Shown in pieces: positions 13,626 through 51,019 of a stretch of 64,000 nt of DNA (the first letter of the stretch is position 1; each line of letters begins with the position of its first letter). This DNA is from Lachnospiraceae bacterium UBA1818 (GTDB lineage: Bacteria; Bacillota; Clostridia; Lachnospirales; Lachnospiraceae), in NCBI GenBank assembly GCA_904419285.1, contig CAJFQZ010000008.1:86253-150252 (forward strand), read 5' to 3'. The translations under genes and the position numbers were made by a program. The notes below the pieces were generated by a model. The model had not been told where the DNA came from. It did no database searches and saw nothing but the letters and a program-made list of their open reading frames with translations.

Positions 13626-13670
13626 TTCAACTTTACCGTTTACTGTTGTTCAACTTTACCGTTTACTGTT
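13626..13670. repeat. Two perfect 22-bp tandem repeats upstream of the cysK promoter
   Basis: Plus strand TTCAACTTTACCGTTTACTG(TT) occurs at 13626-13647 and 13649-13670, a period of 23. A degenerate third copy beginning CAACTTTAC (13579) runs into the -10 element. Position and period suggest regulator binding sites, but this is inference. Confidence 0.8.
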
Positions 13671-32972: not shown

Positions 32973-35705
32973 CTATTTTCTCTCGATCTCCACCATCTTA
33001 TAGGCCTCTACCTGGTCGCCTTCCTTGACATCGTTGAAGTTCTCGAAGACAAATCCACACTCGTATCCTGCCCTTACTTCCTTCACATCGTCCTTGAATC
33101 TCTTCAGGGATGCCAGCGGACCGTCGAAGATCACGATACCGTCGCGGATCAGCCTTGTAGAGCAGTTTCTCTCGAAGATACCATCCTGGATATATGCGCC
33201 GGCGATGGTTCCCACTCCGGAAGCCTTGAATGTCTGGCGCACCTCCGCATGTCCGAGCACCTTCTCCTCGAAGACCGGATCGAGCATACCCTTCATCGCA
33301 GCCTCCACGTCCTCGATCGCGTTGTAGATAACTCTGTAAAGTCTTAAGTCCACGCCCTCGCGCTCTGCGATATCCTTCGCAGTTGCATCCGGGCGGACAT
33401 TGAATCCGATGATGATCGCATTGGAAGCTGACGCAAGGATCACGTCGGACTCGTTGATCGCGCCGACACCGCCGTGGATGATCTTGACAACGACCTCGTC
33501 GTTGCTCAGCTTCAGCAGGCTCTGCTTCAGCGCTTCCACGGAGCCCTGCACATCCGCCTTCACGACGATGTTCAGTTCCTTTAAGTTTCCTTCCTTGATC
33601 TGATTGAAGAGATCGTCCAGAGACATCTTGGACTTTGTCTCTTCCAGCAGTTTCACTTTGTTCTGTGCGATAAAGGTATCTGCAAAGTTTCTCGCTTCCT
33701 TCTCTGACGCACATCCCACGAATACTTCGCCTGCGTTCGGCACGTCGTTCAGTCCGAGGATCTCCACCGGCTGGGACGGTCCTGCCTCTTTGACACGTCT
33801 TCCCTTGTCATCCATCATCGCTCTGACACGTCCGTGGGCGGATCCTGCCGCGATCGCATCTCCCACATGGAGCGTACCCTTCTGTACGAGCACGGTCGCA
33901 ACGGAACCTTTTCCTTTATCCAGCTGGGCCTCGATCACAAGACCTCTTGCCGCACGGTTCGGGTTCGCCTTGAGTTCCATCACCTCTGCTGTGAGAAGGA
34001 TCATCTCAAGGAGTTCCGGGATTCCCTCTTTTGTGTGTGCGGATACCGGTACGAACACCGTGCTTCCGCCCCAGTCCTCAGGGATCAGTTCATATTCTGT
34101 GAGCTCCTGCTTTACTCTCTCCACATTGGCGCCCGGCTTGTCGATCTTGTTGATCGCAACGATGATCTCCACTCCGGCAGCCTTGGCATGGTTGATCGCC
34201 TCCACTGTCTGCGGCATCACGCCGTCGTCCGCGGCGACGACAAGGATCGCAATATCTGTTGCGTTTGCACCGCGCATACGCATGGCAGTGAACGCCTCAT
34301 GTCCCGGTGTATCCAGGAACGTGATCTTCTCGCCGTTGATTTCAACAACGTAAGCTCCGATGTGCTGGGTGATTCCGCCTGCCTCGCGGTCTGTCACATT
34401 GGAATGACGGATCGCGTCCAGAAGAGAAGTCTTACCATGATCGACATGGCCCATGACGCAGACTACCGGCGGACGCTTCACCATAAGGCTCTCGTCCTCC
34501 TCGTCCTCTTTCAGGAGTTCTTCGATCACATCGACAACTTCCTCCTTCTCGCAGAGCACGTCGAATTCCATCGCGATCTCCTCGGCTGTGTCAAAGTCGA
34601 TCTCCTGGTTCACTGTCACGACTTTGCCCTGCATGAAGAGCTTCTTGACGATCACGGACGGCACGACCTTCATCTTGTCTGCCAGCTCTTTGATCGTGAG
34701 GACTTCCGGGATCACGATCTGCTTGATCTGCTCTTCCTTCTTCTCCGCCGGCTTCTGCTGCGGTTTCTTCGCCTCAGCGACCGGTTTCTGCTTCTTGTTC
34801 TTCTTTGCTTTTCCTTCGAAAGCCTCGTCTCTGTATTCTTTCTTCTTGTTGTCTCTCTCTTTGTCCTTCGCCTTGTTTCTCTGGCTCTTCTGCTGCTCCA
34901 TCATCGGAGAGCTCAGGCTCTCTCTGTCGTCGCGGCGGGAATCAGGCCTTCTGTCACCGCGCTGTCCGCCCTGGCGCGCTCCCTGGCCGCCGAACCGCTG
35001 GTCTCTGCCGCCTCTCTCCTGGCGTCCTCCGCGGTCGCGGCTGTCTCTGCTGTCTCTTCCATCGCGTCCGTCTCTGCCGTCGCGGTTGTCTCTTCCTCTC
35101 TGGCCCTGAGCATTTCTGTCCTGACGCGGACCTCTTCCTTCACGCTCTCCGGCGGGACGCTGACCCTGTCCCCGTCCTTCCTGGCGTGCTCCGCCCTGTG
35201 CAGGTCTCTCCTGACGAGGCGCTCTTGCCTCTTCTGCCGGGCGCTGTCCCTGCGCCGGTCTCTCCTGACGGGGTGCTTTCGCCTCGCCTGATGCCGGACG
35301 GGTTCCTGCCTGGGCAGTTCTCTCCGGACGAGCCGGCCTTCCCTCTCCTGCCGGGCGGGACGGATGGTTCTCACCTGCTGTCCTTGCGTTTCCCTGTGCG
35401 GAACGTGCCGGGCGCTGTCCCTGCCGTCTGCCCTGGATACGGCTGCTGTTCTTGGAATTCTGCGGACGCACTACGAACGCGAGATTCTTCTTTTTCGGAG
35501 CGGCTCCGTCCTTCTCCGCAGCCTTCTCCTCTTTCTTCTCCGCGCCCTTTCTTCCGGCAGCTTCCTTCCGGATCTGAGCAGCCACATCGTCGTCCAGTGT
35601 GCTCTGGCTCTTCGCCTCAATATTCTTTGACTTCAAAATATCTACAAGTTCTTTACTCTCCATGCCCAGCTCCTTCGCCAGATCATGTACCCTTATTTTT
35701 GCCAT
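32973..35705 (-). CDS. infB: Translation initiation factor IF-2
   Basis: GTPase that places initiator tRNA on the 30S subunit. The 910 residues have an IF2N module (1-52), a disordered Arg/Gly/Gln/Ala-rich linker (about 93-265, with RDG/RDS triplets and repeated [18 protein letters not shown]-like units), a Lys-rich stretch, a second IF2N module (about 330-385), the G domain (GHVDHGKT 419-426, [12 protein letters not shown]) and C-terminal domains. ATG 35705 has AGGAGG nine bases upstream. Confidence 0.97.
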
Positions 35706-47045: not shown

Positions 47046-48116
<1,071 letters not shown>

Positions 48117-48229
48117 TTATATATAGTGAAAGGGCGGTGCACAGCACTGCGCCTCTTACTAACAAATTAATCCTGTAAAGTGATCCTGCTTCCCGGCAAA
48201 CGTCACTTTCACAAAACAAAACGTCATTC

Positions 48230-48727
48230 TCACAGATATGTAACATCCTTGCTTCCTCTGGACAGTCCGGTGATGCCGGTCCGCGCCAGCTCCAGGATCT
48301 CATAATCCTTCAGGAGATTCAAAAACGCCTCCAGTTTGCTCTGTGTTCCTGTGAGTTCTATCATCAGGGAATCCTCTTCCACATCCACGATCTTCGCACG
48401 GAAGATATCCGCCACGGAAATGATCTCGCCTCTCTGCGCTGCATTGGCGCGGAGCTTCACCATGATCAGTTCTCTGCAGACAGACTCATCGCTCTTTAAG
48501 ACCTTGATGTTCACCACGTCCTCCAGCTTTCTGAGCTGCTTCTCGATCTGTGAAAGTATCAGTTCGTCTCCTGATGACACAACTGTGATCCTGGTGTATC
48601 TGGGATCCGCCGTCATTCCCGCTGTAATGCTGTCAATGCTGTATCCCCGGCGGCTGAACAGCCCCGCGATCCGGCTTAAGACACCCGGATTATTATCTAC
48701 AAGCAGTGAAAATACCTGATTTCTCAT
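48230..48727 (-). CDS. ilvN: Acetolactate synthase regulatory (small) subunit
   Basis: Regulatory subunit that confers valine feedback on acetolactate synthase. The 165 residues contain an N-terminal ACT domain (LLVDNNPGVLSRIAGLFSRRGYSIDSI, part: NNPGVLSRIAGLFSRRGY) and a C-terminal domain ending LARTGITGLSRG. ATG 48727 has GAGGAAG upstream. The catalytic subunit ilvB is not in the window. Confidence 0.95.
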   Translation of the reverse strand: MRNQVFSLLVDNNPGVLSRIAGLFSRRGYSIDSITAGMTADPRYTRITVVSSGDELILSQIEKQLRKLEDVVNIKVLKSDESVCRELIMVKLRANAAQRGEIISVADIFRAKIVDVEEDSLMIELTGTQSKLEAFLNLLKDYEILELARTGITGLSRGSKDVTYL

Positions 48728-48812
48728 CGTCTTCCTCTCTTTCCTAACGAGGACCTTCAAGATCCTGCGTTCAAAATAGTTCTCACGTCCTGCGCGAGAA
48801 TCATTCGCGTAC

Positions 48813-48838
48813 AGAAAACAGAGTGCATTCTGTTTTCT
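48813..48838 (-). promoter_or_regulatory. Hairpin at the 5' end of the ilvN transcript
   Basis: Perfect 10-bp stem AGAAAACAGA/TCTGTTTTCT (arms 48829-48838 and 48813-48822) with a six-base loop, starting at the predicted transcript start. A smaller CGCGA/TCGCG stem follows (48793-48809). There is too little room for a T-box. Confidence 0.6.
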
Positions 48839-48841
48839 ATA

Positions 48842-48870
48842 ATATTAACAACTGTGTCAGTCTTTGTCAA
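48842..48870 (-). promoter_or_regulatory. Sigma-A promoter of ilvN-ilvC
   Basis: Minus strand perfect TTGACA (48865-48870), 17 bases, TAATAT (48842-48847). Confidence 0.75.
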
Positions 48871-48901
48871 GACATTCTTTTGAATTAATCATGGCAGACT
48901 C

Positions 48902-49113
48902 AAGCTACGGTTTGGAATCAAGATTTCTTAATACCGACCGTACGCAGTTCAGTGTTCTTACGGTCGGAAATCCAAAGTTTCTTATTTCAACCGTAATCGA
49001 TTTGGTATTCTTACGGTCGAGAACCCAAGAAGCCGCGCTCTAACCGTACTTGCTTCAATATTCCTACGGTTGAAAATCCAAATACGCCTATCTCGACCGC
49101 CCGTATGATATTA
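48902..49113. repeat. Array of four degenerate 53-bp tandem repeats with paired ACCGTA/TACGGT sites
   Basis: Units: 48902-48954, 48955-49007, 49008-49060, 49061-49113. Each has (T)ACGGT at unit position 5-10 and ACCGNN at 36-41. Neighbouring units form hairpins: 48934-48942 with 48959-48967 (9 bp), 48990-48996 with 49011-49017 (7 bp), 49042-49048 with 49065-49071 (7 bp). The outer pair changes from G-C to A-T between the first and third hairpins with pairing kept. This explains most of the 400-base gap between the ABC-F gene and ilvN. No ORF is evident. Confidence 0.85.
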
Positions 49114-49129
49114 CCTTACCGAATCCTTC

Positions 49130-51019
49130 TTATCCCTGCTCTGCGATCTTCTCCGCCAGGTCATTGAGATAGACCCAGCGCTCCATCTTTTCTTCCAGCA
49201 GAGCGTTCGTCCTTTCCTGCTCTTCCATGAGCTCTTTCAGCTTCACAGAGTTCGTGGCATTCGCTTCGATCTGGCGCTCGACAGATTCTAATTTTTCTTC
49301 CAGCGCGGCAATGTCCGCATCAATCGTCTCGTATTCCCGCTGCTCCTTGTAGGAGAATTTAAGCTTCTGGGGACTGTTCTTCTTCCAGTCCTTCGCTCCT
49401 TTTTTCTGTCCGTCCGCCTCCTGCTGTCCGGCATCTTTTCCGGAAGTACTGCCCGCAGTGCTGTCTTGGGAGCAGTTTCCGGCTTTTTCTCCGGCTCGTG
49501 CCTTCCCTCTGCCGCTTCCAGATACATTGCCGCCGGCATCCTCTCCTGCCCTTCTCTTCTTTGCCTCTAGATAATCTGTGTAGCCGCCCTCATACTGAAC
49601 GGCATGGCCCATTCCGTCCAGCTCGAAAATACGGTCTGCCATATTGTCAAGGAAATATCTGTCATGGGATACCGCGATCACGATTCCGGAAAAGGAATTC
49701 AGATAATCCTCCAGGATCGTAAGGGTAGGGATATCAAGGTTATTCCCCGGCTCGTCGAACAGAAGCACGTTCGCATTCTCCGCCAGAACACCCAGGAGAT
49801 ACAGCCTGCGTTTCTCTCCTCCCGAGAGCTTGCCGATCGGAGCATACTGCATGTCCGGCGTAAAAAGGAAGCGCTCCAGCAGCTGAGACGCGCTGATCTT
49901 TCCGTCCTTTGTGGTAATATACTCGGCGATATCCTTTACATAATCGATCACACGCTGACTGTCGTCCATATCCTGTTCTTCCTGTGCAAAATAGCCGATC
50001 TTCACTGTATCGCCGATGTCAATATGCCCGGAATCCGGCTCTGCAATACCGGCGATCATCTTCATGACCGTGGACTTGCCGCACCCGTTCGGTCCAATGA
50101 TGCCAAGCCTCTGATTCTTCAGGACGATATAAGTGAAATCTTCCAGTATCTTCTTCTCACCATAACTCTTGCTGACATGGTGGAATTCGATCGTCTTCTT
50201 TCCCATCCGCGTCTCCACGGAATCCAGCTCCACAGTCTGATCCTTCACAGGCGCCTTTCCGCTCTTCAGCGCTTCCAGGCGTTCAAGCCTCGCTCTCTGT
50301 TTCGTACTTCTCGCACGGCATCCCCTCTTTGCCCATTCCAGCTCCATCCGAAGGATACTCTGCCGCTTCCGTTCCGACGCAAGCTCCATCTCTTCCCTTG
50401 CCGCCTTCAGCTCCAGAAATCCGGAGTAGTCCGCATCGTAGCCATACATCTTTCCACGGCTGATCTCCAGGATCCGGTTCGTCACCCGGTCCAGGAAATA
50501 TCTGTCGTGGGTCACCATGATGGCCGTGCCGCGGTACGACCTCAGATACTCCTCCAGCCAGGCGATCATGCTGCCGTCCAGGTGGTTGGTCGGCTCATCC
50601 AGCAGAAGAACGTCAAAGTCCTGCGCGAGGACCTTCGCGAGGACAACTCTTCTCTTCTGCCCGCCGGAGAGATGGCTGATCGGTATATCGTACTCCCGAA
50701 TCCCCAGCTCTGTCAGGCAGCTTTCCACCTTCCAGTCCTCTCCGTCTCCCCGGTCAAATGCGTAGGAGCGGATATCCGCATCCTCGGGAAATACCGGATT
50801 CTGGGGTACATACGCGATCTTCAGTCCATTCTGCCGGATGATCTGCCCGGAATCCGGGTTCTCTTTTTCTGCGATCATCTTGAGAAGTGTGGATTTTCCC
50901 GCCCCATTGATCCCAACGATCCCGATCTTGTCTCCCTCCTGGATACCGAAAGAGGCGTCGTCAAAGATCGTCTTCTCACCGTAAATCTTGCTGATATGTT
51001 CTATGTTTATAATATTCAT
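49130..51019 (-). CDS. ABC-F family ATPase (Uup/EttA-like)
   Basis: Soluble tandem ABC protein; relatives act on the ribosome rather than in transport. The 629 residues have ABC1 (Walker A GINGAGKS near 36-43, LSGGQKRRVVLA, LLLDEPTNHLD), a basic linker (about 235-290), ABC2 (GPNGCGKS, LSGGEKRRLYLL, LLFDEPGNNLDIPT) and a C-terminal coiled coil (about 565-625) after a low-complexity Gly/Ala/Lys stretch. The second site has PGNNLD in place of PTNHLD. A C-terminal coiled coil suggests the Uup group. AGGAG precedes the ATG by nine bases. Confidence 0.9.
   Translation of the reverse strand: MNIINIEHISKIYGEKTIFDDASFGIQEGDKIGIVGINGAGKSTLLKMIAEKENPDSGQIIRQNGLKIAYVPQNPVFPEDADIRSYAFDRGDGEDWKVESCLTELGIREYDIPISHLSGGQKRRVVLAKVLAQDFDVLLLDEPTNHLDGSMIAWLEEYLRSYRGTAIMVTHDRYFLDRVTNRILEISRGKMYGYDADYSGFLELKAAREEMELASERKRQSILRMELEWAKRGCRARSTKQRARLERLEALKSGKAPVKDQTVELDSVETRMGKKTIEFHHVSKSYGEKKILEDFTYIVLKNQRLGIIGPNGCGKSTVMKMIAGIAEPDSGHIDIGDTVKIGYFAQEEQDMDDSQRVIDYVKDIAEYITTKDGKISASQLLERFLFTPDMQYAPIGKLSGGEKRRLYLLGVLAENANVLLFDEPGNNLDIPTLTILEDYLNSFSGIVIAVSHDRYFLDNMADRIFELDGMGHAVQYEGGYTDYLEAKKRRAGEDAGGNVSGSGRGKARAGEKAGNCSQDSTAGSTSGKDAGQQEADGQKKGAKDWKKNSPQKLKFSYKEQREYETIDADIAALEEKLESVERQIEANATNSVKLKELMEEQERTNALLEEKMERWVYLNDLAEKIAEQG

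Follow-up and report, generated by a model that had tools for sequence, protein, structure and literature searches.

In a 64,000-nucleotide stretch of DNA from Lachnospiraceae bacterium UBA1818 (contig CAJFQZ010000008.1, positions 86,253 to 150,252 of the forward strand; hereafter the window), an array of four 53-bp units lies upstream of ilvN. This array is probably an orphan, i.e., dispersed, member of a two-part system composed of a nuclease and phased dimeric arrays, and the data point to an undescribed repeat-and-nuclease system. No description of such arrays or of their link to a nuclease was found in the open-licence literature, a scope outside which most subscription papers lie. A nuclease-like gene, which such arrays precede, had gone unnoticed in the initial annotation.

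The four units at positions 48902–49113 and their phased half-sites were confirmed in letters and position as first described. TACGGT starts at 48906, 48959, 49012 and 49065 (unit positions 5–10) and ACCGTA at 48937, 48990 and 49043 (unit positions 36–41), while the eighth half-site (49096) reads ACCGCC; thus, seven of eight half-sites are exact. Self-similarity was highest at a lag of 53 (0.56), followed by 106 (0.51) and 30 (0.37), and the copies showed 63–72% similarity to the reference copy. The array was not listed by Tandem Repeats Finder at a minimum score of 40. With 18, the inverted-arm chain score in 48701–49400 was above that of 100 mononucleotide shuffles of the same 700 bases (≤8), for each of which the best motif was taken. 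Rfam covariance models gave zero matches at E ≤ 1 in window positions 48000–49400.

Contigs C38, C46 and C1 of the same genome carry further arrays with the same unit at unrelated places, in line with the REP-like dispersed character that had been considered. One array in this genome is located directly upstream of the gene for a 264-amino-acid nuclease-like protein. When the open reading frames (ORFs) around arrays from 41 sources were clustered, one family was found in 14 of them, every time downstream of the array and at 26–107 bp from its end. Among 58 genomes of the genus, a 13-member profile of this family identified 16 with the full-length gene and three further ones with short matches. 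Using an 86-position sequence-only model (E ≤ 0.01), arrays were found in 23 of the 58 genomes, among which G000, G030, G047, G049 and G053 supplied the model sequences and hence match by construction. All 16 genomes with the full-length gene contained arrays, as compared to 7 of the 42 without it, two of the seven being marginal (Fisher p 3e-9, with linked arrays included and the kinship of the genomes uncorrected). Forty array regions of the genus were retrieved for reading.

The association extends beyond the genus. A wider set comprised the best 80 of at least 538 relatives from a scan of named genomes, in records named Mediterraneibacter, Blautia, Eisenbergiella, Roseburia, Oribacterium, Butyrivibrio, Coprococcus comes and others. 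In a motif-free chain search, with allowed spacing ranges preset from the first arrays, an array preceded the gene in 66 of the 78 homologues with at least 200 bp of upstream sequence, scoring above all shuffles and control stretches. Loci with such a linked array include those of Coprococcus comes (L204) and Faecalicatena contorta (L188). Eight of the 80 loci (L135, L137, L154, L156, L168, L180, L181 and L184) also show signals with a period of 52–53 behind the gene. At least 31 of the 80 loci (L135–L214) encode the C-terminus of ribosomal protein S9 (rpsI) no more than 3 kb upstream, and many of the remaining loci are cut off by contig ends. This suggests that the locus behind rpsI is a long-standing resident position of array and nuclease. 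Three of the 80 nuclease genes (L161, L200 and L201) contain in-frame stops or a frame break.

The array-linked protein has about 264 residues. Its N-terminal part is more variable and mostly helical, and its C-terminal domain is predicted to adopt an EDxHD/Vsr-like PD-(D/E)XK fold with conserved E, D, H and D residues; in the predicted PD-(D/E)XK-like fold, these residues take the E...D...H...D active-site arrangement of an EDxHD domain. Searches of Pfam, NCBIfam and PHROGs gave no convincing match, only scattered weak ones (best 1.3e-5, for a single member), nor did a sequence search of the PDB. An early AlphaFold model from 13 sequences was poor (predicted local distance difference test, pLDDT, 52). 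Foldseek returned zero matches at E ≤ 0.001 against the PDB, the best being DrdV at 0.02, and eight matches at E ≤ 0.001 against viral models, mostly without a telling name. Homologues were matched in 2 of 50,697 phage records, with 32–35% identity, and in 4 of 72,556 plasmid records, covering 35–58% of the query on its C-terminal side.

The layout of the arrays was constant. Inverted arms about 30 bp apart recur with a period of 52–54 bp, and longer linkers mostly add about one or two helical turns. In a count with unrestricted spacing, each array was shifted to a median site spacing of 30, so that site spacing is comparable only within arrays. The distance across the site was 28–31 in 281 cases, and that across the linker was 22–25 in 245 cases, 26 in one, 33–35 in 13 and 44 in one. 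The odd distances (≤17, 31 of them across linkers, and others) are probably chance arm matches. In 74 arrays, 20 of them from a second set, linkers of 20–26 were found in 62, of 32–36 in eight and of 43–47 in four; linkers of 27–31 occurred in one array, of 37–42 in none and of 48–60 in two. Linkers in related arrays thus cluster near 23, 34 and 44–45 bp and are sparse at 26–32 and 37–42 bp, the longer ones stemming from few independent lineages. A periodicity score on the linkers did not separate 10.5 from 9.5–12 bp (0.77–0.83). We read this as a rigid site with a linker whose length changes in approximately full helical turns; this supports double-stranded DNA viewed from one side. The suggestion that the phased sites share one face of the DNA is supported by these linker clusters.

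Despite the constant layout, with repeat lengths near 52–54 and of 63–64 in some cases, the arm letters vary by lineage: AACCGTA, GCTACTA, ATTCGTA, GGTCAAG, AGTCATA, CAACAGG, GGCAGGG, AGCAGAC, AAATCAA and more. Genome G099 harbors two paralogues of the array-linked gene (62% identical). In this genome, GCTACTA-N17-TAGTAGC occurred in 53 places on at least 11 contigs, as compared to 0–8 in 14 other genomes, and ATTCGTA-N16-TACGAAT occurred eight times, as compared to 0–1 in 14 others. The latter site was found 77 times in genome G404 and 0–1 times in ten other genomes; among the matches listed, the G404 sites span at least 12 regions, one of which is the linked array. Thus, in these two genomes, dispersed arrays carry the arms of the resident gene. 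Within the single genomes G241, G225 and G404, the arrays of paralogues have different arms, ATTCGTA and CTAGTAA in the case of a pair from G404. Between arrays of one genome, the inner sequences vary, and arms and phase are constant. An ATTCGTA-type orphan array of G099 (L270:6189-6490) is located between two large genes of 892 and 887 amino acids.

Orphan arrays were present in at least seven of the 16 genomes with the full-length gene (G000, G007, G010, G030, G031, G049 and G053; hand count among the matches listed). Clearly similar collinear arrays of about 300 bp were observed at different loci in G030 (L104, L106, L107 and L108), G018 (L099) and G031 (L111 and L112), with uncertain boundaries since their flanks are partly similar too. 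Such similarity suggests that whole arrays were copied or moved. With respect to neighboring genes, 23 arrays of the genus were placed: nine between co-directional, seven between convergent and two between divergent genes, and five at contig edges. Hence, few arrays of this small sample lie in divergent promoter regions. The loose chaining used also reports ATTCGTA chains within GCTACTA arrays and open frames inside arrays; its results were taken into account for the 23 genus arrays alone.

At the window locus itself, comparison with related genomes indicated an insertion. The ilvN gene was present in 57 of the 58 genomes of the genus, and its upstream region was readable in 27 of 30 fetched loci, the window's own included; further ilvN hits came without a locus. 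The array was absent from all 26 related loci read, and only the window's own genome carries it there; in the nearest relatives, all without the array, ilvN is 97–98% identical. By eye, 23 of the 26 loci lead from the end of the ABC-F gene to a TTGACA...TAATAT-like promoter within about 10–100 bases, i.e., to promoter boxes similar to those in the window, and three have a different sequence upstream. Thus, the window carries, after the stop codon of the ABC-F gene, an insertion of about 245 bp (Table 1). Its boundaries, read by eye, are uncertain by a few bases, and divergence at the ilvN loci is too high for short target duplications to be judged. Since the array is missing from the 26 related loci, neither its proposed role as a regulator array for ilvN, which was rejected, nor that as a conserved structured 3' region of the ABC-F transcript was borne out. 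The gap between array and ilvN −35 box, initially given as about 30 bp, measured 35 bp.

Table 1. Coordinates in the window of the array, its sites and the surrounding features.
Feature	Position	Strand	Basis
Orphan array, four 53-bp units, inverted 7-bp arms, '>' sense AACCGTA	48906..49101	.	sequence and chain search
Site 1, TACGGT ... ACCGTA, arm distance 30 bp in heptamer register	48906..48942	.	sequence; layout from related arrays
Site 2, layout as site 1	48959..48995	.	sequence
Site 3, layout as site 1	49012..49048	.	sequence
Site 4, right arm ACCGCC	49065..49101	.	sequence
Insertion of ~245 bp with array, between ABC-F stop codon and ilvN promoter	48885..49129	.	26 related ilvN loci compared
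ilvN promoter by consensus: TTGACA (48870-48865), 17 bp, TAATAT (48847-48842)	48842..48870	-	by eye
ilvN (acetolactate synthase small subunit; name from initial annotation)	48230..48760	-	ORF list
ABC-F type ATPase, 629 amino acids, gene before array; name from sequence	49130..51019	-	ORF list

Between the ilvN promoter and the start codon, an inverted repeat with 16-nt arms (88% complementary) was observed at 48810–48841. An ACAGA..TCTGT palindrome occurs at the equivalent place in the relatives' ilvN loci read, and because it is kept there, this repeat, rather than the array, looks like a conserved leader element of ilvN. Elsewhere in the window, further tandem repeats are located at 13626–13670 and 35001–35096, an exact 23-bp doublet and an array with a 42-bp period.

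It had been proposed that a compensatory G-C to A-T change between the stems of the window array reflects selection on pairing or on palindromic protein sites. Both stems are present as letters (CCGACCGTA/TACGGTCGG and AACCGTA/TACGGTT), but the compensatory reading failed. Matched double changes in the seven arm positions, paired either across the site or across the linker, were compared with permutations. In 66 nuclease-linked arrays, 10 compensated changes were counted across the site (13.5 ± 2.6 expected; 362 pairs) and 11 across the linker (11.9 ± 2.4 expected; 344 pairs). The 26 genus arrays, including that of the window, gave 28 across the site (34.6 ± 2.8 expected) and 35 across the linker (36.0 ± 2.8 expected). 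Thus, no excess was observed in either set or for either pairing. In the flanking column −3, the count exceeded permutation for pairing across the linker (19 vs. 10.5) and fell short of it for pairing across the site (5 vs. 14.5). By eye, the arrays of G030 and L006 had seemed to covary across the site, but the counts did not confirm this, and RNA pairing was rejected as the main idea. The lack of compensatory arm changes favors double-stranded DNA sites over hairpins.

That the arrays act as hairpins of RNA or single-stranded DNA whose stems are the arms, in a REP-like or attC-like manner, is therefore improbable. The arms are inverted repeats in which stems of 9 and 7 bp exist, and RNA folding of the window array was better than that of shuffles (z −3.1; 2 of 200 equal), as it would be for any inverted repeat. 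However, besides the missing compensation and the lack of an Rfam match in the window region, linker lengths are grouped at intervals of about one helical turn, a regularity that hairpins would not require. Even less credible, and the least probable of the explanations considered, is a guide-RNA or spacer array (CRISPR-like or TIGR-like) with the nuclease as its effector. A tandem array does adjoin a nuclease-like gene, and inner sequences differ between units in older arrays. Those of L150, L177 and L195, unlike spacers, are nearly identical across units, and it is the arms, not a long repeat, that are conserved. A local, non-functional tandem duplication without any system is very unlikely. 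Absence from relatives at the ilvN locus had been named as pointing to it, and the array was indeed absent there; moreover, the window units are 63–72% alike. Such a duplication is nevertheless not implied, because half-sites and phase are retained elsewhere, in further arrays of this and related genomes, at many unrelated loci and while the rest diverges.

More serious, although still unlikely, is the explanation that the arrays are operators or chromosome-organizing sites of another DNA-binding protein and that the nuclease gene is merely one array-bearing locus. Any cooperative dimeric binder would be compatible with arrays that are dispersed between genes and conserved in arms and phase. 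Three observations weigh against the assignment of the arrays to the nuclease: some genomes have arrays but lack the nuclease gene, the linked arms of G030 (GCCGAAC) are unlike the arms of its orphans, and the arms of G110 are confined to one contig. The first two fit another binder. On the other hand, the array precedes this one gene in the 66 homologues, across many genera, and a single host protein would not explain why each paralogue within one genome has its own arms.

The mechanism with the best support is one in which the nuclease would bind double-stranded DNA as a dimer and cooperatively, at the phased inverted arms. The first part would be the protein of about 264 amino acids with its predicted C-terminal EDxHD/Vsr-like PD-(D/E)XK nuclease domain, and the second the arrays of long dimeric sites, each with a pair of inverted 7-bp arms at a distance of about 30 bp. 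Since the repeat recurs every five DNA turns, the sites would lie on one side of the double helix. A nuclease dimer may read one arm with each N-terminal part and fill an array by cooperative binding. In front of the start codon of its own gene, the array-bound nuclease would regulate that gene's expression and introduce nicks or cuts into the array. When these breaks are repaired, arrays may grow or shrink, and now and then one may be copied to another place, yielding orphans like the window array; cutting would in this way drive dispersal. The arm letters are specific to the nuclease lineage, and the arrays follow. We tentatively propose a sequence-specific EDxHD family whose N-terminal part quickly evolves new 7-bp arm specificities, each with scattered, helically phased dimeric sites, as a dispersing double-stranded-DNA system that may be present in several independent copies per cell.

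Among known systems, REP/REPIN sequences with their RAYT (TnpA-REP, 'REPtron') as described in PMC8049555 and PMC8266576 are similar in their dispersed intergenic inverted repeats, a resident gene next to the same repeats, the match of repeats to the enzyme of the lineage and the higher number of repeats in gene-holding genomes. Here as well, inverted repeats were found scattered between genes, with matching ones next to a resident gene. In contrast to the HUH (Y1) enzyme of REP/RAYT, the array-linked protein is not an HUH (Y1) transposase and is predicted to be EDxHD/Vsr-like PD-(D/E)XK. Furthermore, the arms described here lack a pairing signal, the tandem array is phased with a five-turn period, and several paralogues with different arms occur per genome. 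The EDxHD homing endonuclease I-Bth0305I, described in PMC3943268, shares the predicted catalytic fold with conserved E, D, H and D residues and acts as a dimer on a very long target, as the inverted arms about 30 bp apart suggest here. The array-linked gene differs from it in being free-standing and in its accompanying arrays, which comprise many sites. As regards homing, the only insertion seen was that of the window, an array without the gene. The protein had no Pfam match to the families of the nucleases Vsr, TnsA and Bax1. In PADLOC, all 69 members matched the profiles of the anti-phage candidate PDC-S68 (best 2.8e-31), and 68 of 69 matched PDC-S69. The nuclease domain is shared, but the PDC-S68 profiles comprise 1202–1273 positions and only their C-terminal part was matched, the best stretch of the first member being positions 1061–1216 of 1221.

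If this interpretation holds, the arrays and their nuclease would represent a second, unrelated bacterial solution to the REP/RAYT arrangement, in which a resident nuclease is maintained together with the scattered arrays that it recognizes. The changing arms on a constant layout would provide a natural series of matched protein–site pairs, some within one genome, which would let the protein–DNA code be read directly. It would also account for intergenic repeats of a class found in common gut bacteria, which without it seem unrelated oddities before genes such as ilvN.
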